From the IMG/VR virus record IMGVR_UViG_3300037189_005058, positions 1-23,507 of that record: a stretch of DNA of 23,507 nucleotides. One strand, written 5' to 3'. Positions 1 to 14,080 of the stretch are shown in pieces. The notes beneath the pieces are model-generated. The model saw nothing but the letters and a program-made list of their open reading frames with translations, was not told the DNA's origin and searched no databases. Position 1 is the stretch's first letter, and each line of letters opens with the position of its first letter. This stretch comes from a virus. Both the position numbers and the translations under genes were made by a program.

Positions 1-2217
1 AGTATTACAAGCTCCGTTTGTAGGAGGTGTAAGGCCCACATTTACTCCGTTCACTCTGTATTCATTATAAGTAGCAGAGTAAGGATTCACATCTCTATAT
101 ACTACATATGTACCACATGATACGCAAGTATTATAGTTTTGAGATGCCCATTGAGGTGTAGCATCATAAGTAGCAGTATTTTTTTCTATTACTCTTAATA
201 GCTCAACCTTTGTAAGATCATTAACTTCTGGAGTAAAATCTACTACTCTACTTAATCTATATAATCCACCATCTATATGTATATACTTACCAAAATTAAG
301 ATTAAAAATATCTTGATCAGTAAGCTTAAAATATCCAGTTAATAATCTACTATCCTTATCTGTGATCTCAGCTAAATAACTTGAGTAATATGTATTAAAT
401 AAATTATTACTTAAGTCACCAGTAGCTAATGTAAAATATAGCTGCTGAGGCGCACCAAAATTAATATCTTGAGTAGGAGCATCTGGATCATCTAAATGTC
501 CAGCATAAAGGTAATCTGTTCTAGATCCTAAGCTTGTAGCTCCATTATAAATAGTCCATGATGCCACACCAGTCTGATATGATGTCTGCATGATACGCAC
601 ATTATGATCCATAGGATCTTCTTTAGTATTCTCATTAGACTTCTTATAAATAGCTGGGAAAACTTTATCTTGCCCAGTTGCATTATATAATACAGAAGCA
701 CTAAAGATTACTTCCACTTGCTCAGTATCCTTAACAAACTCCAGGCCATTATCATAGATCCTATCACCATATCCCTCACTATATTTTTTACGATATTCCT
801 CATTATAGTAGTCGTTATCTTGTTTGTATTTTAAATTATAATATCTAGCATTTATCTCACTCATTGGCTTTTGCTTGATTACCTTCTCTCTATCAAGCTT
901 ATTACTCCAATCTAGTTGGCTACCATCCCAGAAATCAATATAAGGTGATATGATTAAATGATTCTTTTTATATTTATCCTCAGTTACTAAAAGATTAAAC
1001 ATCTTTAATATTGAGATAAAGAAATCCTTTTGAAAAATACCTTTTGGAATAGTATTATTAATTGGCAAAGATTCACCATAATTAATAGGTACTAAGCTAC
1101 TGGTAGTAGTACTCATATCAAAAGATCCATCTAATACGCTTAGATCATAGCTAGCTGCTCCACTCCATTCTACAGACACCTGGAAAGTATCACCATTATT
1201 AATCGTATTATTAGTTAATGCTAATGATACATTAAAATAATTTGTGCTGAATCCAGCTCCAATATATTGGCTAGCTACGCTAGTGCCATTTTTTCTAAGT
1301 TTGATAGTAGCTGGATTACCAATATTCCAAATACCCACTACTTTTAAATTGATATTTACCTCTTTTGTAGTACCAGTATAAGTAAATAAAGTATTTGAGC
1401 TTGTCAAAGTAAAACTACCTAATGTAGTAGCTACAAAGCTTAAATTAAATGATGTAGATCCAGATCCAGTATATTGCTTTAATTCTGGCATTGCTTCTAA
1501 CTGCACATTTCTATTCTTTTGTAGCACTGCTTGATTATTAGGTATAATCAAACGCTTGAATTTAGCCTCACTAAAAAATGGGCATTCGTAAGTATATCCA
1601 GCAGCCTGGAAAATTTTATCTAAATATTCTTTTACATATAAGGCTGGCTTAAATGTAGTGTATTGGAAATCTTTTTTAGCAGTACCATATACACCAGTAC
1701 TCACATTACCATAATCTATCAATGGGTAGCAGTAGCCAGATCCTGGTGTATTAGTCCAGCTACCCACTATGCTAGATGCATTATAGGTATGATTATATGC
1801 GCTAAAATCTAGATCCTCTAATCTGTTATTGCCTAATGCAGTAATAAATCCACCTAGCTCACCAAAGATCGCACATTCATATTCTACTGCATCACCATTT
1901 TGAACAATCTCAATTAATCTTAATACTCCTTTCATAATTTGCAGGCCATTTAGTTCTATTCTGGCATTTGCATTAACGGCAGCATTAAAATTATATAAGA
2001 CATTATCACTAGCTGGATTGTAAAAGTTTGAGCTATTAAACTCAAAAATATTACCTAATAATTTATTATTATTAGCAGTACCAGGTATTACGATAGTCTT
2101 TGTAAATGATGTGCTTTTGCTATCTAGATTTTGTAGATCATCAATAGCATAAGTGATCTGATTAGTAAGACCTTCTGTTAAATCAAGCTCATATCCCTCT
2201 ATAAATATTCTAGTCAT
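1..2217 (-). CDS. Phage structural (probable tail) protein, C-terminus cut by window edge
   Basis: The reading frame opens at an ATG at 2217 (protein begins MTRIFIEGYELDL) and stays open for 739 codons to the left edge, so the C-terminus lies outside the window. The protein is rich in Asn, Thr, Ser and Tyr, with many short beta-type stretches and no signal peptide or membrane segment. Near residues 710-720 there is a Cys-Val-Ser-Cys pair. The start lies one base beyond the stop of the upstream structural gene, so the two are tightly linked. It is the last visible member of the minus-strand block that runs from terminase through tail-like genes. Large size, composition and position suggest a virion protein, most likely a tail or baseplate/tip component. 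I recognise the overall type from Bacteroidota phages but cannot name a family. Structural role is fairly likely; the exact role is unknown. Confidence 0.75.
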   Translation of the reverse strand, partial: MTRIFIEGYELDLTEGLTNQITYAIDDLQNLDSKSTSFTKTIVIPGTANNNKLLGNIFEFNSSNFYNPASDNVLYNFNAAVNANARIELNGLQIMKGVLRLIEIVQNGDAVEYECAIFGELGGFITALGNNRLEDLDFSAYNHTYNASSIVGSWTNTPGSGYCYPLIDYGNVSTGVYGTAKKDFQYTTFKPALYVKEYLDKIFQAAGYTYECPFFSEAKFKRLIIPNNQAVLQKNRNVQLEAMPELKQYTGSGSTSFNLSFVATTLGSFTLTSSNTLFTYTGTTKEVNINLKVVGIWNIGNPATIKLRKNGTSVASQYIGAGFSTNYFNVSLALTNNTINNGDTFQVSVEWSGAASYDLSVLDGSFDMSTTTSSLVPINYGESLPINNTIPKGIFQKDFFISILKMFNLLVTEDKYKKNHLIISPYIDFWDGSQLDWSNKLDREKVIKQKPMSEINARYYNLKYKQDNDYYNEEYRKKYSEGYGDRIYDNGLEFVKDTEQVEVIFSASVLYNATGQDKVFPAIYKKSNENTKEDPMDHNVRIMQTSYQTGVASWTIYNGATSLGSRTDYLYAGHLDDPDAPTQDINFGAPQQLYFTLATGDLSNNLFNTYYSSYLAEITDKDSRLLTGYFKLTDQDIFNLNFGKYIHIDGGLYRLSRVVDFTPEVNDLTKVELLRVIEKNTATYDATPQWASQNYNTCVSCGTYVVYRDVNPYSATYNEYRVNGVNVGLTPPTNGACNT

Positions 2218-2218
2218 A

Positions 2219-3352
2219 TTATCTTAATTGGCTATATCTTTTAGTATTCATCTTTACATCTAACTCTAATACTCTTAATCTATTATTTACATATTTGCTA
2301 ATCTCAAAGTTATTTAAAGCTATAGTTACTGGATAATAATACCCATCTATCTCCATATATATCTGAGGTGAGTAGATTAACTCTTCAAGCCATTGATACT
2401 CTGCATCTGTAGGCGCATCCATTGTCAATCTCCACACATAATCACGCTGATTCAAGTAATTCACTTTACCAGCATAGTACTTGTTATTAGTATTATAATA
2501 TGTTACGCTGCTAGATCCTAGATTATAGTCTCTCTTCTCAAATTCCTTTCTATCTACATTTAATGTAAGCCTACTAGCCAAACCAAATTTAGCAGTATCA
2601 AACATGCCTAGGCTATTCATAAAGTGCAGATTATAACTAGTGTACTTTAGATTGCAGTCCAGGTAAATAGTATATACAGATGTACCAATAGTAGCAGTAT
2701 AGTATTTTACGCTGCTATCTATGATCGTAGTAGATTTATTTAATGCTGGTGAGCCTATATTAAGCTCAGCAAATGCCTTAGTACCACCTAAGCTAAATGT
2801 AGTGCTAGTGATCTGTGCATTATTATGGTTATATGTCACAATAGTAACACCAGATACATCTTTAGCGCCAATGAATAAATTATCACCTATGCTCGCATTG
2901 ATCGTACCAGGTCTGGTAGTCATTGCCTTATTGCTATATCCAGTAATATCCGATACTCTTCTCTTTAATAAAGGTGCGCTCCAATTATATGCAGTCACAT
3001 TACCACTTACTAAGTTTAAATATGTCACTCCACTATATTCTTCACCGATTCTATATTGATAAGTCTGTGCCACCTGGCCACTTACATTAGGCTCACATGA
3101 TAGCACATTATCTGTAGGCTCAAACCAATCATAGGTCATGGTATTGCGCACAATAGGCCCAGCATCAAAGTAACCCTTATTATTAGATGGCTCTGGGTAA
3201 ATCTTAACTCTTGATTGCTGCACACCTCCTACAAATACATCAAATACATATTTAAAATCAGTCACTCCAGTAACGCTAGTGTTAAATATATGCCACAGAG
3301 CATCCTGGCAAGTTGGTGTACCAGATGGATATGCTAAATTACTTATTGCCAT
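2219..3352 (-). CDS. Phage structural (probable tail) protein
   Basis: A 377-residue protein with an ATG start that overlaps the end of the upstream gene by 14 bases. It is rich in Tyr, Asn, Thr and Val, with alternating hydrophobic patterns typical of beta-sandwich virion proteins. It lacks a signal peptide, membrane segment and enzyme motifs. The C-terminal ~70 residues carry a compact segment (WRLTMDAPTDAEYQWLEELI, then IYMEIDGYYYPVTI) that looks like a folded tail-tube or tip domain. It sits between the frameshifted chaperone-like gene with the 218-residue protein and the large structural protein, in one transcription unit. A tail role is inferred from this context. I do not recognise a named family. 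Confidence 0.7.
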   Translation of the reverse strand: MAISNLAYPSGTPTCQDALWHIFNTSVTGVTDFKYVFDVFVGGVQQSRVKIYPEPSNNKGYFDAGPIVRNTMTYDWFEPTDNVLSCEPNVSGQVAQTYQYRIGEEYSGVTYLNLVSGNVTAYNWSAPLLKRRVSDITGYSNKAMTTRPGTINASIGDNLFIGAKDVSGVTIVTYNHNNAQITSTTFSLGGTKAFAELNIGSPALNKSTTIIDSSVKYYTATIGTSVYTIYLDCNLKYTSYNLHFMNSLGMFDTAKFGLASRLTLNVDRKEFEKRDYNLGSSSVTYYNTNNKYYAGKVNYLNQRDYVWRLTMDAPTDAEYQWLEELIYSPQIYMEIDGYYYPVTIALNNFEISKYVNNRLRVLELDVKMNTKRYSQLR

Positions 3353-3995
3353 TTCTTATATTTATTCGTTCAAATGTTATTACTATATCAGTCTCTAAAG
3401 CTTCCGCCATTTTGACCTCAAAATCTTTAAATGTTTCATTAAAGGCATCTGTGAAATAGTTAGTAGTCTTGATACCAAAACGCTTAATAAGATAAGCTAG
3501 CGTATCTACTTGTCTATCTATTAATGTTTTTTTCTCAGCAAATCTTACACCTTTTTTCTCACCTCCAATACCTAACGCTTTGTCATTCATTACGCTAGTT
3601 ATCTTAGCCTTTCCACTTAATATATATCTTTTTAGTGATGCTCTGCCAGAAGCTGGCATGCCATAATTCTTATATTGATATGGTGATCCTGGAGCATTCG
3701 CACTTGATTTAACACCTTTCACACCCTCATTTGGATAATCATAGTAATCCAGCATCCTTAGTCTAAAAGTAGTGATGCCATTTTCATTAATAATCTCTGG
3801 GATCATATTGCTTAATAAATCACCAGATCCCACTACTCCTTTTTGATTACCAAATTTACTAATATTAGATAATAGATCAGCTCCATACTGCTCTAGCACT
3901 CCGTTTACTACGCTAAATTCAGCTATATCCTCACCGCCAAAATCAGCTCCACTAGATAGCGCTTCTTTTTGCGCTCTGTTGATATTGATACTCAT
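3339..3995 (-). CDS. Hypothetical phage virion or tail-completion protein
   Basis: A 218-residue protein with an ATG start inside the end of the preceding frame (44-base overlap), which suggests translational coupling. The first ~60 residues are mixed. The middle is rich in Gly, Lys and Ser (around residues 90-155), and the C-terminal ~60 residues form a likely long amphipathic helix (KKTLIDRQVDTLAYLIKRFG and onward). It has no membrane segment, signal peptide or recognisable catalytic motif. It lies between the chaperone-like gene and the large tail-type proteins, so a head-tail joining, tail completion or minor tail role is plausible. This rests on position only. Confidence 0.6.
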   Translation of the reverse strand: MSININRAQKEALSSGADFGGEDIAEFSVVNGVLEQYGADLLSNISKFGNQKGVVGSGDLLSNMIPEIINENGITTFRLRMLDYYDYPNEGVKGVKSSANAPGSPYQYKNYGMPASGRASLKRYILSGKAKITSVMNDKALGIGGEKKGVRFAEKKTLIDRQVDTLAYLIKRFGIKTTNYFTDAFNETFKDFEVKMAEALETDIVITFERINIRNGNK

Positions 3996-4239
3996 CTACT
4001 AATCTTTTTTGTTTTAAATATGCCAAATCATTTAAAAATTGAATCACCGATAGATCATAGACTGCATCTAAAGGAATACCCTCCATCTCTGCTACTTGCT
4101 TTGCTGAGTAGATCCAGCCAAAATTTTCTGTGAATATAGTCTCAGCATTTTTAGTCGTTTCTTGTTCTGTCTCATCATTTTCATTAGTAAGTCCGAATAA
4201 ACCTCTGTATTGTTCGTTAAATTGGCCAAGAATATGCAA
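3952..4239 (-). CDS. -1 frame extension of the tail-assembly-chaperone-like gene (long-form C-terminus)
   Basis: This 95-codon frame has no ATG at its beginning. Its first codon is a TTG sitting directly on the T9 run at 4238-4246. It overlaps the zero-frame gene (4092-4730) by 148 bases. Its sequence looks natural: an acidic Glu/Thr linker, then a segment from FGWIYSAKQVAEMEG to FLNDLAYLKQKRL with good helix periodicity. The zero-frame tail over the same bases is Lys/Met-rich and less convincing. A -1 slip on T9 joins the first 164 residues of the zero frame to this frame, giving about 259 residues. That is the layout of gpG/gpGT-type tail assembly chaperones in siphoviruses. The alternatives are transcriptional slippage or a homopolymer length error or mutation that split one gene. 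I think it is not an independent gene. Confidence 0.6.
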   Translation of the reverse strand: MHILGQFNEQYRGLFGLTNENDETEQETTKNAETIFTENFGWIYSAKQVAEMEGIPLDAVYDLSVIQFLNDLAYLKQKRLVDEYQYQQSAKRSAI

Positions 4240-4730
4240 AAAAAAACCATTGCATTGTAGCCATGTCTAAACTCAGCTTGTTTCATATCATCTGCATATT
4301 GCTCATGCTTATCTACATCAAATGGCATAGGCACATATCTCATCTTGAGCCAGCTCCACTTCATAGGTGTGCAGATACTAGCCAGGATATTATGCATATC
4401 ATTGATAGGATCAGATTTACTAAATGTCAATACCTCAATATATCGGCCAGTATTAAACGGCTTTTTAATCTCAAAATTCAAACTATATACATTACCATTT
4501 GCCATTATTAGGCTTTTAGGAGCTTTCATTGTCTCTACTTGTACCTTTAGATCAAATGCCTTTTGTAGCTTATCACAAAGCTTTGCAAACTTCTTTAATG
4601 GCATCTTATCTATTTCCTCACTAGATTTATCTAGCAATATCTGCACCATCTTAGCTGCTTTCTCTAGCTCATTCTCTTCAAGACTAGCTATGGCATTAAG
4701 CCTTTGGAATTTGTCAATAGTTAAATTCAT
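4092..4730 (-). CDS. Tail-assembly-chaperone-like protein, short (zero-frame) form
   Basis: An ATG-started frame of 212 codons, 19 bases downstream of the large terminase stop. The N-terminal third is helical and charged (EENELEKAAKMVQILLDKSS). The middle has NGNVYSLNFEIKKPFNTGRY, then IEVLTF and a DPINDMHNILASI segment. A GYNAMVFF motif then runs straight into the T9 run. After the run the zero frame continues for only 48 residues to a stop at 4092. The short/long pair would match lambda gpG/gpGT, in which both forms coat the tape measure protein during tail assembly. No tape measure gene is visible in the window. The gene assignment rests on the frameshift geometry and the structural neighbourhood, not on a recognised domain. 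Confidence 0.6.
   Translation of the reverse strand: MNLTIDKFQRLNAIASLEENELEKAAKMVQILLDKSSEEIDKMPLKKFAKLCDKLQKAFDLKVQVETMKAPKSLIMANGNVYSLNFEIKKPFNTGRYIEVLTFSKSDPINDMHNILASICTPMKWSWLKMRYVPMPFDVDKHEQYADDMKQAEFRHGYNAMVFFCIFLANLTNNTEVYSDLLMKMMRQNKKRLKMLRLYSQKILAGSTQQSK
4238..4246 (-). other. T9 slippery run, candidate -1 programmed frameshift site
   Basis: On the minus strand the zero-frame codons are ATG GTT TTT TTT TGC, giving nine consecutive T (nine A on the plus strand). Re-reading one T after the second TTT puts the ribosome into TTG CAT ATT, the frame of the 95-codon extension. The run of T codons allows tRNA re-pairing in both sites. The same run is also a hot spot for polymerase slippage and for sequencing or assembly length errors, so the mechanism is not settled by sequence alone. 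Confidence 0.6.
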
Positions 4731-4749: not shown

Positions 4750-5916
4750 TTATATAACATGGTATTTACCTACCATTTTGTGATCATTCCTACATTTATT
4801 AGCCAGGGCCAAAGCTATCACGCAGTCATCATGAAATCCCTGAGGAGCTGAGTATCTAACTCCAGTAGGTGTAAAGGTATACTCAAATACTTCAAGCTCG
4901 CCCTTTATAGGCCCTTCTGGGAAGCTTATCTGCTTTGTATGGATCGCACTAGCCAAACCTTCTAAAAGCTGCTGCTTGCTCACACTAGTGAACTTAAAGC
5001 CATGCATTTGTGTAAATTGCTTTTGTAGATCCTCTACTATGGCATCACCCACACCAGTGCTATCAATTACGATAGGCAAATTCTTAGGCAGCCTTAAAAT
5101 AGTTTCTTTTGTCTGCATCCAGTCTTTTTGGAATCTATCAAAATGCACCACATTGCCTTGCTTATCTAGTCCTATGATAACTGACCAGTCCACAGACTTA
5201 GCCAGGTCAATTCCGTAATAAGCAGCCACCCCAGATGATGATCTGGTACAAGCCTGGATAAATTCAGATCCAAATGGATTTGAGGCATTCTCCATGGGAT
5301 CTGCAAGATACTCTTGCTTAAATACCACACTAGGGAGCTGAGCTTTCGCAGCATCAATCTCGATCGGATCAATGAAAGGATTATCATAGGTGCTAAATTT
5401 AAACGATTCCCACTCTGGCTCACCACCACGCATAAATAGGCTATAAAAATAATTTTTGCCTCTAGGTGTACTTAAAAAGATAGCCTTTCCTTTGTAGTCT
5501 GTTAGTGTAGGTCTGATACTATTATTCCAGCCTTCCTCTAAATTTGAGATAAAGCTGGCCTCATCTATGATCACTAGGTGGAACTTCAAACCTCTCAGCG
5601 CATCCAATCTCTCACCAGTAAAGAATCTAATAGATCCACCAGTAACAAAATTGATCATTAAATCAGTCTCATTCTTTTTATATATTTTCTCTGGTAGTAG
5701 CTTGCATATCTCCTTAAAGAAAGTTTTACCTAGCTGATATGTAGGTGTGATATATGCAATGCTTTGTTTATGCAGTGCGCATTCTATTGATACATTCTGG
5801 CTAATTAATGATTTCCCAAATCTTCTACCACACATCATCACTCTGAATCTGGCATCACTATCTAGCACTGCCTTTTGTGCCTGGTGTGGCTTAGGTAATT
5901 TAATCTGGAGATTCAT
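4750..5916 (-). CDS. terL: Terminase large subunit (packaging ATPase and nuclease)
   Basis: The DNA packaging motor of the phage: it hydrolyses ATP to move DNA into the prohead and cuts the concatemer. At 388 residues it is compact. The ATPase half has a Walker A-type motif (CGRRFGKS, residues 29-36), a Walker B (LVIIDE, 114-119) and a coupling-type motif (STPRG, 149-153). The C-terminal RNase H-like nuclease half shows the expected acidic residues: D237 in YYGIDLAK, D285 in IVIDSTGVGD, and D363/D364 in FHDDCVIALALA. The start is an ATG that overlaps the small subunit by 17 bases. Portal or capsid genes do not follow, contrary to the common order; a chaperone-like and tail-type genes do. Identity is very secure. 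Confidence 0.96.
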   Translation of the reverse strand: MNLQIKLPKPHQAQKAVLDSDARFRVMMCGRRFGKSLISQNVSIECALHKQSIAYITPTYQLGKTFFKEICKLLPEKIYKKNETDLMINFVTGGSIRFFTGERLDALRGLKFHLVIIDEASFISNLEEGWNNSIRPTLTDYKGKAIFLSTPRGKNYFYSLFMRGGEPEWESFKFSTYDNPFIDPIEIDAAKAQLPSVVFKQEYLADPMENASNPFGSEFIQACTRSSSGVAAYYGIDLAKSVDWSVIIGLDKQGNVVHFDRFQKDWMQTKETILRLPKNLPIVIDSTGVGDAIVEDLQKQFTQMHGFKFTSVSKQQLLEGLASAIHTKQISFPEGPIKGELEVFEYTFTPTGVRYSAPQGFHDDCVIALALANKCRNDHKMVGKYHVI

Positions 5917-6334
5917 ACTTGATTGTAATAGTATCTATGTTTGTATTCTCAGTTACTGCTCTATCAGTCATGCCTAAAGCATTCTTTGCATAGAAGATAG
6001 CTTTGCCTTCATTTGCTACTATATCAGTAGCCAATGCCTTAAACATATCTACGATCTTATTGCAGATGTCATGATAAGGATGAGTAGGATCTTGTCTCAC
6101 TTTCCAAAGGCCCATCTTTGTGTAGAACTCAAACTCATGCTTTCTTAGCCAGTGATGTAAGAAATAATCTATAGTAGGCACAAACCTATCTCTAATAGAT
6201 ACAATCTTACCAGATCCAGTAGCCACCTCTTTAGTGCCACTCATGCAATCATCACAATATGCATATGCTAGATCCATTAGCTTCTCTTCATCTATATCCA
6301 TAAATTTTCTAGTTACATGTTCTCTTGCTTCCAT
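5900..6334 (-). CDS. terS: Probable terminase small subunit
   Basis: A 144-residue protein directly upstream of, and overlapping, the large terminase. It would recognise phage DNA and hand it to the motor. The N-terminal half is acidic and helical (MDIDEEKLMDLAYAYCDDC), followed by a segment with RFVPTIDYFLHHWLRKHEFE that resembles the helix-turn-helix part of small terminases. The C-terminal part contains NEGKAIFYAKNALGMTDR, very like the FxLKNxxGxxD segment common in small terminases and packaging proteins of Bacteroidota phages. The ATG start lies inside the end of the upstream glycosyltransferase-like gene (22-base overlap). Position next to terL and the C-terminal motif make the call good but not certain. 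Confidence 0.75.
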   Translation of the reverse strand: MEAREHVTRKFMDIDEEKLMDLAYAYCDDCMSGTKEVATGSGKIVSIRDRFVPTIDYFLHHWLRKHEFEFYTKMGLWKVRQDPTHPYHDICNKIVDMFKALATDIVANEGKAIFYAKNALGMTDRAVTENTNIDTITIKYESPD

Positions 6335-6924
6335 ATATTTAACTTTTTTGATCCGTTTCTATAACCTATCACATCATCTACATGCATTTGCCAATACTTT
6401 TGTACCAGTTCATTTTTATCCCATCCATATTCATTACCAGATGCATGTGATCCGATATGCTCAGCCTTACAATTCATCACATAGTATGTATAAAATCCAG
6501 CTAGATTGGCACGCTCGCAGTAGTCCAGGTCAATAGGCCCATATGGAAACATCTGCTCATTGAATAATCCTATATTATTTACTACATCCATGGATAGTAA
6601 CCAGTTTGATATTATATGCTCACTTTGGATATTATATCTAACATTATCCAGGCTTGATGCTACTATGCCAGCTTTAGGATAAGTCTGCAATGCTGCCATC
6701 TTTTTAGCTAGCCAATTCTCTGGCTCTTTAATGTCATTTGCTAAATAAGCTATAGCATCAAAATCATCTACTAAAGCTATATCTATGGCTTCATTCATTG
6801 CATTAGCTATCCCTTCTTTGCTAATAAAAATGCACTCAGCATCATATCCAGCATTCAAAAGATTATGTTCTAAAATATCTAACGGCCTATCTCCATATAC
6901 TAACCCAGCTATTAATATTTTCAT
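6313..6924 (-). CDS. Glycosyltransferase family 2-like (GT-A fold) protein
   Basis: A 203-residue protein that would transfer a sugar from a nucleotide-sugar donor. The N-terminus (MKILIAGLVYGDRP) and the segment IALVDDFDAIAYLANDIKEP fit the donor-binding half of a GT-A fold, with the ND at about residues 63-64 where a DxD-type metal site is expected. The segment from NIGLFNEQMFPYGPIDLDYC, followed by ERANLAGF, matches the family 2 acceptor region (usually FxxxxFxxxxEDxDxxxRxxxxG). At about 200 residues it is shorter than most GT2 enzymes, so it is a minimal or divergent member. It sits between an acyltransferase-like gene and the small terminase, so it belongs to a sugar-modification cassette in the packaging operon. 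The acceptor could be host surface glycan, a virion protein or DNA. The sequence does not tell. Confidence 0.72.
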   Translation of the reverse strand: MKILIAGLVYGDRPLDILEHNLLNAGYDAECIFISKEGIANAMNEAIDIALVDDFDAIAYLANDIKEPENWLAKKMAALQTYPKAGIVASSLDNVRYNIQSEHIISNWLLSMDVVNNIGLFNEQMFPYGPIDLDYCERANLAGFYTYYVMNCKAEHIGSHASGNEYGWDKNELVQKYWQMHVDDVIGYRNGSKKLNIWKQENM

Positions 6925-6936
6925 ATGTAAATATTT

Positions 6937-6967
6937 AACTTTACTTTATTACAGATTTTGTAAAGTT
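6937..6967. repeat. AT-rich inverted repeat between acyltransferase and glycosyltransferase genes
   Basis: Perfect 8-base arms AACTTTAC (6937-6944) and GTAAAGTT (6960-6967) are separated by 15 bases. They lie in the 68-base gap downstream of the acyltransferase-like stop and upstream of the GT2-like start on the minus strand. This is the only sizeable gap in the cassette. It could be an operator or a weak terminator/processing hairpin. The stem is weak because only two of eight pairs are G-C. Confidence 0.35.
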
Positions 6968-6992
6968 TTACCTTTACTTTGATCCGATTAGC

Positions 6993-7484
6993 TTACTTAT
7001 TCGGCTCATTTGGGCCTAGCCACTTTGCTGGATTGCCAGCATATTTCTGGTAAGGCTTAGTTATTAATTTTTTAGTTACCACTGCACCCATACCGATCAT
7101 GCAGCCTGGTGCTATCTCTTGCTTTTGATGGATCACTGCATTTAGTCCTACATTGCATTTAGGATGCACAATAGTATGCCCTCCAATCTTTGCACCACAT
7201 GATAACACTACATTTGATCCTATAAAGCAATCATGTCCCACATGCACATGCTTTAACATCCATACATCATTACTTATGTAGGTAGGTGATGTAGTGCCAG
7301 CATCTATAGTCACATGCCCAGTAATTACACATCCTTCATTTATGATCACTGATCCTATAGGCTTATTCCAGAAAGCCTTATGCTCTGCCATAGATCCTAT
7401 GATGCAGTATGGCCCAATATAAATATTATCACCTATTAATTTAACATTGTCGTAAACAATCGCAGTCGGATGTATATAATTCAT
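6993..7484 (-). CDS. LpxA-like hexapeptide-repeat acyltransferase
   Basis: A 163-residue left-handed beta-helix protein. Repeated hexapeptide turns ([LIV]-G-x-x-x-x) run through most of it, for example LIGDNIYIGPYCIIG, IGSNVVLSCGAKIGGHTI and CMIGMGAVV. H81-V-G-H84-D matches the HxxHD site of LpxA enzymes, whose second histidine is the catalytic base (His125 in E. coli LpxA). This indicates acyl- or acetyl-transfer to an amino or hydroxyl group of a (nucleotide-)sugar. E. coli LpxA is much longer (262 residues, with a helical C-terminal domain). This protein lacks that domain and ends in NPAKWLGPNE, a tail common to sugar O/N-acetyltransferases (aGNPAk). It may therefore be a phage sugar acetyltransferase rather than a lipid A enzyme. 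Its neighbours on both sides include glycosyltransferase-like genes. Confidence 0.82.
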   Translation of the reverse strand: MNYIHPTAIVYDNVKLIGDNIYIGPYCIIGSMAEHKAFWNKPIGSVIINEGCVITGHVTIDAGTTSPTYISNDVWMLKHVHVGHDCFIGSNVVLSCGAKIGGHTIVHPKCNVGLNAVIHQKQEIAPGCMIGMGAVVTKKLITKPYQKYAGNPAKWLGPNEPNK

Positions 7485-7690
7485 AGCGCTATTTGATCTT
7501 TAAATGTTTTATAAACATTTACTAAGAATGTACCCACGCATGCGCCACATCTGCTATTATAAGTATAGATCGGATCTACTAGCTTATAAATATCTAGCAA
7601 CTCATTCTGGATCTCATGTGTGAATCCCACTAGCTCGCCAGTCTTAATAAATAGATCATAAAAATGCTTATGCTTTAATAAGGTCTGCAT
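7481..7690 (-). CDS. Small hypothetical protein with CGAC motif
   Basis: The frame is open from 7759, but the best start is the ATG at 7690 (protein MQTLLKHKHFYDLF, 69 residues). An AGGAG lies 8 bases before it, and the overlap with the upstream glycosyltransferase falls to 23 bases. An ATG at 7723 is the alternative. The N-terminal part is helical. The C-terminal part has YNSRCGACVGTFLVNVYKTF, a single CxxC pair at about residues 49-52 that could bind metal by dimerising or form a disulfide. Its stop overlaps the acyltransferase start by 4 bases, so it is translationally coupled into the sugar cassette. I do not recognise a family or function. Confidence 0.6.
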   Translation of the reverse strand: MQTLLKHKHFYDLFIKTGELVGFTHEIQNELLDIYKLVDPIYTYNSRCGACVGTFLVNVYKTFKDQIAL

Positions 7691-8783
7691 ATGCTTCTCT
7701 CCTAAGTTTACTGATATGCTCATAATTGTACTTTTTTTTGGCCCAGTTGTAAAGATCATTACCCATCTTGATCCTTTCCTCTGGATTGTTAATTAAATAT
7801 GTTAAATGTTTGTACCAATCTTTTTGGCTTTCTATCCATAGCACTGGTGCATCTGTATCCATGCTATATGGCTGCACTTTACTCACTATGCATGGCACTC
7901 TCTTGCTTGCTGCCTCTAATATTTTTAGATTACTCTTGCACGCATGCCAGTCACTCTCTTGCAAAGGTATGAGCATAATGTCTGCCTCTTCAAAATGGCT
8001 CATGTATGCATTAGGCAAAGTACTTGCAAGCTTCTTATTTGGTAGTCTGCCACCATCTGTGAATAAGCTCCATAGCTGATCCCAGTATTGCTTACTCACT
8101 GGATCACTATCTGTGTAGCCACCTAGCACCATCTCAATATTGTTAAACTGGTGCAGCCTTTTTACTGGACCTTTCAATAGCTTGATATCATCCATATGCG
8201 TAGATCCACCCGCCCAGAATATTCTCACCTTATCACTAGACTTCTTATCCTCTGTGTATTGATGCTGGCCCAATGGTATGCAATTAGGTAAAATTACCAC
8301 CTTATCATGATATTGCCTAAGCTTCTGAGCTAGTCTCTCATTAGTGCATGTTACCATATCAGCATACTTAATGTTATTGATTACTCGTTCTCTTTGAGGT
8401 GCGTAGAATTTATGCAATGGGTGATTATATGGCAGATCCCAATCATCATCCATATCCATCACTATTTTATAATGCTTTTTAACCTCATCCCAGTTTTGAT
8501 CAAATGGAGAGAATCTGTTATACAAAAGTATATCAAATTGCCTTTTTTTTAGGATCTCTTCTGTAGGTACATTGCATACATGGTTATATGAATCTGGTAA
8601 AAATGCTAATGGTAATAGCACTCTATGCCATCCACATCCGCTAACCTTCTGCGTAATTCCCAGTACTTGTATTGTGCTATTTCCCTTGTCCACGATATGC
8701 TTTTGGTTTTGGTGTGTGTTTGTTATAACTCTTTTTTGGTGATCCACATTTGCGCTTTCCAAATGTTTGCTTTTTTGAATCAT
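7668..8783 (-). CDS. Glycosyltransferase, GT-B fold (family 4-like)
   Basis: A sugar transferase of about 335-371 residues. The N-terminal domain has GCGWHRVLLPLAFL, then DMDDDWDLPYNHPLHKFY and a YADMVTCTNERLAQKL segment. The linker VVILPNCIP is typical of GT4 enzymes. The C-terminal nucleotide-binding domain begins VRIFWAGGSTHMDDIKLL and ends with EEADIMLIPLQES, then KSNLKILEAASKRVPCIVSK. That last part is the ExxxxxxPxV-type donor site. The ATG at 8783 is doubtful: its first ~36 codons overlap a convincing small gene in another frame (8677-8802), and the residues they encode look out of frame. The conserved domain begins near IQVLGITQKVSG, about 8675. A GTG at 8693 or a rarer start there is more likely. 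Membership of the sugar cassette is clear, but the substrate is unknown. Confidence 0.82.
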   Translation of the reverse strand: MIQKSKHLESANVDHQKRVITNTHQNQKHIVDKGNSTIQVLGITQKVSGCGWHRVLLPLAFLPDSYNHVCNVPTEEILKKRQFDILLYNRFSPFDQNWDEVKKHYKIVMDMDDDWDLPYNHPLHKFYAPQRERVINNIKYADMVTCTNERLAQKLRQYHDKVVILPNCIPLGQHQYTEDKKSSDKVRIFWAGGSTHMDDIKLLKGPVKRLHQFNNIEMVLGGYTDSDPVSKQYWDQLWSLFTDGGRLPNKKLASTLPNAYMSHFEEADIMLIPLQESDWHACKSNLKILEAASKRVPCIVSKVQPYSMDTDAPVLWIESQKDWYKHLTYLINNPEERIKMGNDLYNWAKKKYNYEHISKLRREAYADLIKA

Positions 8784-10588: not shown

Positions 10589-13070
10589 CGGATCTAGATA
10601 AGATTTTAAACTCATGTTTATTATTATTTTGTCTGTTTCTTCTTGTTTCTATTTTATCTCCTAATATGTCTGCTGCTACAGATAGGCCTTTCTTAAATCT
10701 TACTTGGCTATAATCCTTTTTATCAAGATCATTAATATTAAGAAAGCTGGTGTATTCTGCTCCAAACTCTCTCCATTGATCTCTCACAATGTCATCATAG
10801 TAAGCTAAGAAATCCTCTCCAAAGTTAAGCTTTATATTCTTACGATTAATAGTAAATGTATTCTCAAGCTGAGGAATACCATTTTCAAGATAAATTTGCA
10901 CACATTCTACCATAAAATTGTAAAAACGATTCCACTCATCACGATCCCAGTCATTAAATAAAGCATTACCAAAAAAGTCTAAAGGTGTATTCTTATGATT
11001 AAAGAATGAGCTAAACTCTATAATGCGTACTCTTCGCTTACCATGCCCACCGCTATAGTTAATAGTGTAGTTAGTAGTAAATCCAAACTTAGGCGCATCA
11101 TTATAGTTTATATATATCTCATCCTTATTCTTTTTTTCTATGGTTACACCTTCTGTAATCTTAGAATAGAATCCCTCAAAATCTACATTTTTACGGCAAT
11201 CCTCAATTACTATAAGTTGAGTAGATAATTCCACACGCTGGAAAGCAAAAGACTTGTCTAGCTTAAAGTTCTTACCATCTATGCTAACCAGGTTAATCAT
11301 TTTCCCAATAGCCTTAAAGAAGATACCCTTACCAGCTCCACCACCTTCTGATTCATTCTCAGTCTCTTCTGCTAGGATCACTGCATATGATTTTGTAGGA
11401 TCTTTATAGGTGTGCAGTAGATAGCCTATAAGTGCAATGCAATAAGCCACACGCTCTGGATCATCATTAGATACCTTCTCAATAAACTTAGTGTACTGGA
11501 CATAATTAAAATCTATATCATTCTCAATGTCTATATTAAAGTCTATCACCTGGTCTTTCCAGACATGCGCTCCAATCTCTCCATACTTTAAAAGCTCCTT
11601 TTTATTTTTAGTGATCTTTACCACACCATTTTTAAATGGATAGTAGGCAGCTTGCTTAGTATGCTTTAAAAGATTTAATTTTATGTTAGGCATAAACTCA
11701 AACAGAGACTTATTAAAATAAGCATCTGCGCCTTTGTATATAATCTCTCTAAGCCTACCTGGTGTGATGCCATCAAATTGGCTAGGCAGTCCATCAATGT
11801 AATTATTAATAAACTTTTTAATTTGCTCTGTGTTAGTCTCAGATACAAAGCCATCCTCTATCTTCACTAGCTTATAGTTGAGCTTATTATCATAGTAGTA
11901 GATATAAAAGCCACCATAATCTGATAGGAAAGATAGAAACTTATTGCGCTCTATGGTGATGATGCCTTTATCATTCACATTCCAGAACGCTAGGATCTTC
12001 TCAGACTTATCATTCTCTAATTCATTGACTATCTCCTCAGCTTTATCAATATCTATATTATGCCTTGATGCGATATGTACAGCAATATTCCGTACATCTA
12101 AGCCTTCATCCTTTTTTTTTATGTAGTCACGCTTAATATTTTCAGATACTTTATTGCGCTGCTCTCCATAGCCATCCTTAATTAATTGCTTTGCAGCTTC
12201 GCTAAAATTATTATTATGCTCAAGTAAAGCATAGATAGCAAAAGGCTTGTAGCCTTTATTAGTCTCAAATTCTGTAGAGGTGCTAAATACTTTAAATAAG
12301 CCCAGGCCTCTGTGGTAGTCTGCGCTTATGTGGCTATCAGTCTTACCTGGTCTCTTTAGGAAATCACGCTCACCTCTTGTCTCTATCCAGGTCCAGCCAT
12401 GATTCTCTAAAAGCTTTACCACATCACATTTAGCATTATAATCATCCCATGGTGTGAGATTAAATGTATCACTATCATTTACTACTTGAGTAGTGCGCAC
12501 CTCTTTTATCACTTCATTAAATGATCTGCAAATAGATAGGATGGATTCTCTTTGCTCTATGGTGATTACATTAACCTCAAACTCCTTCTCTTTAGTGTAC
12601 CCATCACTAGGAGGCGCTAGCACATAACCTCCCTCTCCTCTAGTCTCAATTAGTACGATCTCTTTTGCATGTGGTGTCTCTTTAAGCTCCTCTTTGGTAG
12701 CATGGCGCATGGCTAGCTTTTGATTACCTTCTACCACTTCACATCTATAGTACAGATGGTAGCCACCAGACTTAGTGCGTACAATATAAAGTAAAGGCAA
12801 TAGATCAGATAGAGCATCTTGTAGCCTGGTCCAAAGATTACCAGACACATCATATTTTAAATCTACATCTATGATCTCTAATCCACCAGAGACTGCGCCA
12901 CCAATTATGGCTATATTCTTGCAGCGCTCATTTGTGAACTGGTGCTTTAGTGTAATATCATCCATTATATTAGTTTGGTACTCAGTCCAAGGAAATATGG
13001 CCCTCTTATTATCTCCGATAGGGATAACACTAAAATTCTTGTTTATATAAAACTTGGCGGCTTTAAGCAT
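10575..13070 (-). CDS. Primase-helicase (Prim-Pol domain plus SF3/D5-like helicase)
   Basis: An 831-residue replication protein that should both prime and unwind DNA. The N-terminal Prim-Pol (archaeo-eukaryotic primase-like) domain, about residues 1-170, contains IIDVDLK (metal-binding DxD at 68-70), TKSGGYHLYYR (99-109) and ETRGEGGYVLAPPS (142-155). The C-terminal third is a superfamily 3/D5-type helicase: Walker A-like GGGAGKG (576-582), Walker B TQLIVIEDC (617-625), sensor-type KFGFTTNYT (661-669) and arginines at 679-682. The last ~60 residues (EFGAEY... RNRQNNNKHEF) are shared with the GIY-YIG protein and look like a winged-helix-type DNA-binding end. The ATG start at 13070 is 5 bases after the preceding stop. 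It belongs to the leftward arm of the divergent replication region. Confidence 0.9.
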   Translation of the reverse strand: MLKAAKFYINKNFSVIPIGDNKRAIFPWTEYQTNIMDDITLKHQFTNERCKNIAIIGGAVSGGLEIIDVDLKYDVSGNLWTRLQDALSDLLPLLYIVRTKSGGYHLYYRCEVVEGNQKLAMRHATKEELKETPHAKEIVLIETRGEGGYVLAPPSDGYTKEKEFEVNVITIEQRESILSICRSFNEVIKEVRTTQVVNDSDTFNLTPWDDYNAKCDVVKLLENHGWTWIETRGERDFLKRPGKTDSHISADYHRGLGLFKVFSTSTEFETNKGYKPFAIYALLEHNNNFSEAAKQLIKDGYGEQRNKVSENIKRDYIKKKDEGLDVRNIAVHIASRHNIDIDKAEEIVNELENDKSEKILAFWNVNDKGIITIERNKFLSFLSDYGGFYIYYYDNKLNYKLVKIEDGFVSETNTEQIKKFINNYIDGLPSQFDGITPGRLREIIYKGADAYFNKSLFEFMPNIKLNLLKHTKQAAYYPFKNGVVKITKNKKELLKYGEIGAHVWKDQVIDFNIDIENDIDFNYVQYTKFIEKVSNDDPERVAYCIALIGYLLHTYKDPTKSYAVILAEETENESEGGGAGKGIFFKAIGKMINLVSIDGKNFKLDKSFAFQRVELSTQLIVIEDCRKNVDFEGFYSKITEGVTIEKKNKDEIYINYNDAPKFGFTTNYTINYSGGHGKRRVRIIEFSSFFNHKNTPLDFFGNALFNDWDRDEWNRFYNFMVECVQIYLENGIPQLENTFTINRKNIKLNFGEDFLAYYDDIVRDQWREFGAEYTSFLNINDLDKKDYSQVRFKKGLSVAADILGDKIETRRNRQNNNKHEFKILSRSDGSF
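10608..10649 (-). repeat. Imperfect direct repeat, copy in primase-helicase gene 3' end
   Basis: Partner of 9813-9854, about 36 of 42 bases identical by eye. It encodes the ETRRNRQNNNKHEF end of the primase-helicase. The pair brackets the GIY-YIG gene with its upstream GTAC cluster. Confidence 0.7.
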
Positions 13071-13746: not shown

Positions 13747-14019
13747 TTAATCTTTCCAATCATCAATCCAAGTTATAGATGGTAATTTTACTTTTGCATC
13801 TTTTGGAGCTTCACCCTTTTTTATTGATTCTTCTAATAACATTCTAGTAAGTAATAAAGATTGTAATGCTAATTCAAAATCATGTAAAAAAGATTTATAA
13901 TTTTCATAAGTTATACAATCAGCAATATCTTGAATAGTCTCTAGTTTATAACTTATTGCATTTTCTTTAGGATCTTTATTCATAAAAGACATTTTGATTT
14001 CAGCTTCTAATTCTTTCAT
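13747..14019 (-). CDS. Hypothetical protein, first gene of leftward replication arm
   Basis: A 90-residue, mildly acidic, helical protein with a leucine-rich central segment (FLHDFELALQSLLLTRMLLE, about residues 44-63) that may dimerise. The C-terminus is KLPSITWIDDWKD. There is no recognisable domain. The ATG at 14019 is about 20 bases downstream of a TATATTTG promoter-like box, so it should be expressed first from the divergent region. Its role is unknown. Confidence 0.62.
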   Translation of the reverse strand: MKELEAEIKMSFMNKDPKENAISYKLETIQDIADCITYENYKSFLHDFELALQSLLLTRMLLEESIKKGEAPKDAKVKLPSITWIDDWKD

Positions 14020-14063: not shown

Positions 14064-14080
14064 AAAAAAAATTTTTTTTT
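14064..14080. promoter_or_regulatory. A8T9 tract shared by divergent promoters
   Basis: Eight A followed by nine T in the middle of the 119-base divergent gap, with a TAnnTTTG box about 15-16 bases away on each side. Such tracts are stiff and bent and may act as UP-like elements or an -33 substitute. A nearly identical A7T8 tract precedes the promoter-like box at 18707-18714. Confidence 0.45.

Follow-up and report, generated by a model that had tools for sequence, protein, structure and literature searches.

Two open reading frames on the minus strand of a viral DNA (23,507 nucleotides, positions 1 to 23,507 of IMG/VR record IMGVR_UViG_3300037189_005058; hereafter the window) overlap at a run of nine T (T9). 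This raises the question of whether a single gene yields two proteins here through a programmed change of frame, what those proteins would do, and whether it is the RNA polymerase or the ribosome that would slip. A preliminary description of this DNA had placed the overlap of the frames at this run and had given lengths of 212 residues for the zero-frame product and 259 residues for a -1 long form, and the sequence agreed on each point (Table 1). On the minus strand, the zero frame reads ...AAT GCA ATG GTT TTT TTT TGC ATA... around T9 and continues for 48 codons past the slip site, and a -1 shift at the run joins 164 residues to a further 95 to give the long form. According to the description, moreover, the downstream frame lacks an ATG. 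This is true of the region ahead of the conserved domain described below, but codon 52 of the -1 frame is an ATG (4086-4084), which lies inside that domain and is not conserved, most relatives having Phe there.

By itself, a T9 is no rarity in DNA so rich in AT: the window contains three such runs, against 1.08 expected. A further T9, at 14072-14080, is intergenic, between divergent genes at 14019 (-) and 14139 (+). Under the codon usage of this phage, Val-Phe-Phe would be written GTT TTT TTT with a probability of ~0.11. In the related genome G001, TTT TTT is used for 3/13 other Phe-Phe pairs, and GTT is a minority Val codon.

Table 1. Coordinates of the slip site, the frames that it joins and the neighbouring genes in the window.
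Feature	Position	Strand	Description	Basis
T9 slip site	4238..4246	(-)	zero frame GTT TTT TTT T; -1 frame goes on TTG CAT	sequence
Zero-frame gene, short form (G-like)	4092..4730	(-)	ATG 4730 to TAG 4092, 212 aa
-1 frame extension	3952..4239	(-)	95 codons + stop, without its own upstream start
Two-frame overlap	4092..4236	(-)	in the -1 frame mostly variable acidic linker
N-terminal domain, both forms	4239..4730	(-)	164 aa, with its end (..VFF) exactly at the slip site	AlphaFold2, relatives
C-terminal domain of the long form (T-like)	3955..4134	(-)	FTENFGWIYSAKQVAEMEG..FLNDLAYLKQK	conserved in alignments
Terminase large subunit gene (terL), directly upstream	4750..5916	(-)		Pfam Terminase_6N 4.6e-8, phrog_2 7e-45
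Next gene, overlapping the end of the -1 frame	3339..3995	(-)	218 aa	same place in relatives
Two tail-module genes	1..3352	(-)	377 aa; 739 aa of contig-cut gene	between slip gene and tape measure in relatives

We compared the junction with those of relatives collected by terminase and gene searches (~55 close relatives) and by profile searches with the -1 domain, from which the best 80 of 284 and the best 80 of 491 places were kept. After duplicates and junctions cut by a contig end had been dropped, 112 distinct junctions remained. Exactly T9, in the same phase, was present at 111 of these; the remaining one (L164) has no T run, and T7, T8, T10 or another slippery heptamer was found at none. 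The run is kept across 14 lineages, with N-domain identity as low as 19%, among them that of the cultured marine Nonlabens phage P12024S. By contrast, a control homopolymer in the primase gene (12112-12120 in the window; YIKKKDEG on the coding strand) keeps its nine A only in the nearest relatives, most of the others having A5-A6. A pattern search of GTDB genome contigs found no relative, and a sequence search of a phage collection with the long form gave no match. Within a single 63-kb contig (IMGVR_UViG_3300043436_001856), two copies of the -1 domain (L264 and L270) are separated by ~31 kb; the contig is perhaps a concatenated or mixed assembly.

The preliminary description had considered a homopolymer error within a single continuous gene to be the main competing explanation, and had suggested looking in related genomes for a conserved overlap. 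Homopolymers are error-prone, and the L164 frame is continuous; however, T9 recurs in many metagenomes, at 111 unique junctions, as well as in a cultured phage genome, and L164, having no T run at its junction, is not a corrected copy of a T9 gene. The constancy of the run in relatives therefore excludes a sequencing or assembly error, the chance of which we regard as negligible, and shows that the run is under selection. Relatives with one continuous frame and no slippery run had been named in advance as evidence against a slip; L164 is such a relative, set against 111 junctions that have T9. We also considered the possibility that the frames are two separate genes, with the -1 frame translated from a start of its own, either the TTG codon at position 4239 or the ATG further in. 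TTG is a possible start, and GenBank begins gene 39 of P12024S, the counterpart of the -1 frame, at an internal ATG. By contrast, the TTG position is TTA, not a usual bacterial start, in 83 of the 112 junctions, the ATG of the window is unconserved and placed within the conserved domain, and an accidental T9 would not persist. A separate start is thus ruled out as a general explanation, and two independent genes are very improbable.

In L164 (3468-4211), the N- and C-domains occupy a single 247-aa frame. The terminase genes are followed by the fusion gene, then by a 240-aa gene whose product resembles HK97 gp10, two tail genes and finally a putative tape measure gene. Because both domains are carried continuously, between terL and the 240-aa gene, the long protein is a real unit made by this family. 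L164 manages without a slip, suggesting that some phages may have no need of two forms or may produce them otherwise; with the slip absent in one member, the need for two forms becomes testable. Vladimirov is said to have described, in 2022, T4-like phage tail chaperones made without frameshifting. L164 resembles these in having a long form without a slip site, but differs from them in being a single fusion.

The N-terminal domain, which is conserved in relatives, gave a confident AlphaFold2 model (pLDDT 91.2, pTM 0.83); the model of the -1 domain was poor (pLDDT 54.7). In alignments of the relatives, the -1 extension opens with a brief conserved stretch (L..FN..Y.GLF), followed by an acidic linker that varies and then by a conserved domain with the consensus FGWIYNAK.VSEFE..L..VYDLPV.QFLNDL.YLK.K. 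Past the overlap, substitutions pile up at third codon positions of the -1 frame (4201 vs 2317 and 1027). Since the -1 extension is conserved as a protein domain, we conclude from the alignments that the long form is under selection and is a selected product. Within the overlap, by contrast, substitutions are spread nearly evenly across codon positions, and the rate per site is above that of both flanks. The tail of the short form past the slip site varies from 25 to 85 residues across relatives, and the zero frame stays open there for slightly longer than in synonymous simulations (Fisher P 0.006, with 14 lineages treated as independent though they are not). This slight signal of selection on the zero-frame tail is outweighed by the higher substitution rate of the overlap, which led us to take the tail as tolerated and, judging from the substitutions, as weakly constrained at best.

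A fold search of viral predicted structures with the N-domain as query returned 31 matches at E <= 0.001, none of them functionally named. Gene 38 of P12024S (BFVD I6R9M9; E 1.3e-7) was among these, and it was by this search that the cultured relative was reached; Flavobacterium phage 6H gave a weak fold match. Nonlabens (Persicivirga) phages P12024S and P12024L, of the genus Inhavirus, resemble the window in having terL, an N-domain gene, T9 and a -1 extension in the same phase. In P12024S (L236, JQ823122; 23136-23830), gene 38 starts at the last base of terL, T9 lies at 23578-23586, and the -1 frame has no stop for 81 codons, a stretch that runs through the annotated gene 39, so that genes 38 and 39 resemble one slip-joined gene. 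P12024S differs from the window in sequence, with an N-domain identity of ~19%, and in its GenBank annotation, where genes 38 and 39 are two hypothetical proteins and the frame transition is not noted. From this cultured relative, we infer that the host group is Bacteroidota. In a limited search of the literature on tail chaperone frameshifting and slippage, flavobacterial phages and P12024S, neither the gene nor a T9 chaperone site was described.

A tail chaperone gene usually lies immediately before the tape measure gene, although this is not absolute. The preliminary description had noted that the slip gene sits directly after terminase, away from any visible tape measure gene, and had called this position unusual. 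The gene indeed adjoins terL, as it does in P12024S and in most relatives examined (in one exception, G008, it is ~3 kb from terL), and such a place is unusual. The missing tape measure gene, however, reflects the end of the contig: the window ends within a repeat-bearing gene, leaving the tape measure out of view. This contig-cut gene (1-2217, (-)) encodes about 1,197-1,199 aa in relatives, with tandem 53-aa repeats that probably broke the assembly of the window. G001 (35,597 bases) has a 127-base direct terminal repeat and is therefore probably complete. Its gene order is terS, terL, slip gene, 218-aa gp10-like gene, 377-aa gene, ~1,197-aa gene with repeats, tape measure (28562-30175; phrog_3336, E 8.7e-6) and protease, followed by a scaffold-like gene, capsid, a 172-aa tail-tube-like gene (32795-33313) and portal; the small-terminase, scaffold, capsid and tube assignments were made by eye or from weak structural-protein profiles. 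Three genes thus separate the slip gene from the tape measure gene. The 218-aa gene product, which gave no profile match in the window, is similar to the head-tail joining proteins of HK97 gp10 type. Small proteins with the motif GYN[LI].L.G are encoded after the capsid gene, two in P12024S (2149-2694 and 5953-6552) and one in L089 (15795-16310), and look like tail tube proteins. In the window, the stretch immediately upstream of the gene for the small terminase, 6313-8783 (-), holds glycosyltransferase-like, hexapeptide-acyltransferase-like and second transferase-like genes, as judged by eye only.

We consider it likely that an invariant T9 here directs a programmed -1 frame transition within a gene for tail assembly, in a family of siphophages of Bacteroidota type. 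The architecture of the gene and the content of its module further suggest that it probably has the function of a gpG/gpGT-like tail assembly chaperone, as the preliminary description had proposed. A conserved frameshift of tail assembly chaperones was reportedly described by Xu, Hendrix and Duda in 2004. Chaperones of this type bind the tape measure and tail tube proteins, are missing from virions and are made at a fixed ratio of short to long form. As with lambda gpG and gpGT, the locus lies in a tailed-phage structural module and specifies a short form and a -1-shifted long form with a common N-domain, the conserved C-terminal domain being confined to the long form. Unlike those of lambda, the slip site is an invariant T9 rather than a mixed heptamer, the gene comes right after terL and three genes ahead of the tape measure gene, and the short form ends not close to the slip site but 25-85 codons beyond it. 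Overlapping frames with a conserved -1 slip site, a conserved long-form extension and, in G001 and P12024S, a downstream tape measure gene are all present, but the gene is not immediately upstream of the tape measure gene. Most transcripts or ribosomes would read through to give a short protein, with a folded 164-residue N-domain and a poorly conserved 48-residue tail, and a minority would slip to give a long protein, with the N-domain, the acidic linker and the conserved C-terminal domain. If the two forms act as lambda gpG and gpGT do, the tape measure protein would be coated by the N-domain, whereas recruitment of the tail tube protein would fall to the C-terminal domain, present in the rarer long form.

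Searches of Pfam and PHROGs, which the preliminary description had recommended, gave weak matches for the slip gene: phrog_166 tail protein (0.00095) was the best, followed by phrog_18582 tail assembly chaperone (0.0022) and, under its curated cut-off, Pfam Phage_TAC_7 (0.041). PDB fold and sequence searches gave no solved-structure match, so that the gene differs from solved chaperones in having no detectable sequence or fold likeness to them. The assignment of chaperone function therefore rests on architecture. The place of the gene directly after terL and ahead of a gp10-like gene, together with the weak chaperone family matches, would also suit a factor for head completion or another step linked to packaging, likewise with two forms. 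We regard this as unlikely, since the hallmark of tail chaperones is a slip site that yields two C-terminal variants within the structural module of a tailed phage, and since no frameshifted gene and no other chaperone candidate was found directly before the tape measure gene in either G001 or P12024S. In the latter, the tape measure is gene 49 (phrog_58, 2e-4); genes 47 and 48, just ahead of it, were considered as an alternative chaperone pair and dropped because they have a plain ATGA overlap and no slip run. Thus, the observation of the preliminary description is confirmed and its interpretation partly supported, the locus being a conserved T9 variant of the frameshifted chaperone architecture. 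A probable tail-assembly factor can thereby be named for a large phage family with almost no cultured members, and also for the cultured Inhavirus phages, whose annotation splits it into two genes.

In vivo, runs of nine A or T make bacterial RNA polymerase slip efficiently, and dnaX of Thermus thermophilus undergoes transcriptional slippage on nine T (PMC5009743). Such slippage yields mRNAs in which a U has been gained or lost. One added U in the T9 transcript gives exactly the -1 frame, and the frame junction has a conserved run of the kind associated with transcriptional slippage (at least nine A or T). As in T. thermophilus dnaX and other genes with transcriptional slippage, a nine-T run joins the frames, one additional nucleotide leads into the -1 frame and no RNA structure would be needed; unlike dnaX, the gene is a phage structural gene and the slippage itself is predicted from sequence. 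We judge the chance that RNA polymerase slips on this T9 to be even. Classical -1 ribosomal frameshifting on T_TTT_TTT, with no polymerase slippage, would give the same products from the same gene and is a nearly even prospect. A T_TTT_TTT heptamer is present in phase (4245-4239), but since every T9 holds such a heptamer in any phase, its presence is weak support. Tail chaperone cases are described as ribosomal in the review by Atkins (PMC5009743). A hydrophobic residue (Val or Leu, with T at codon position 2) can account for the first T of the run, and Leu in the -1 frame for the ninth. To our knowledge, all known tail chaperone cases are ribosomal.

By contrast, the run is never shortened to T7 or T8 or replaced by another slippery heptamer at any of the 112 junctions, and we found no stable or conserved RNA structure downstream that might stimulate a ribosomal shift: 13 z-scores for stability averaged ~+0.3, with one strong outlier (L045, z -2.9), and RNAalifold predicted no pairs. 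A stimulatory structure or an anti-ribosomal sequence close to the site is frequent in -1 ribosomal frameshifting, but not obligatory. Moreover, the residue encoded at the first T, Val or Leu elsewhere, is Asn in the non-slipping fusion of L164, which hints that Val is retained because its codon supplies a T. Because the first and ninth T are also explicable by hydrophobic residues, the two mechanisms stay close to even, and we lean slightly to the polymerase. The more specific proposal that polymerase slippage on T9, and not ribosomal frameshifting, determines the ratio of the two chaperone forms throughout this Bacteroidota phage family is tentative. If it is correct, tail building would be regulated at transcription; within the limited literature searched, polymerase slippage would be new for the tail chaperone class. 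Since its T9 is invariant and stands bare, no helper structure having been detected, the site offers a clean natural case for the question of whether polymerase or ribosome sets the chaperone ratio.
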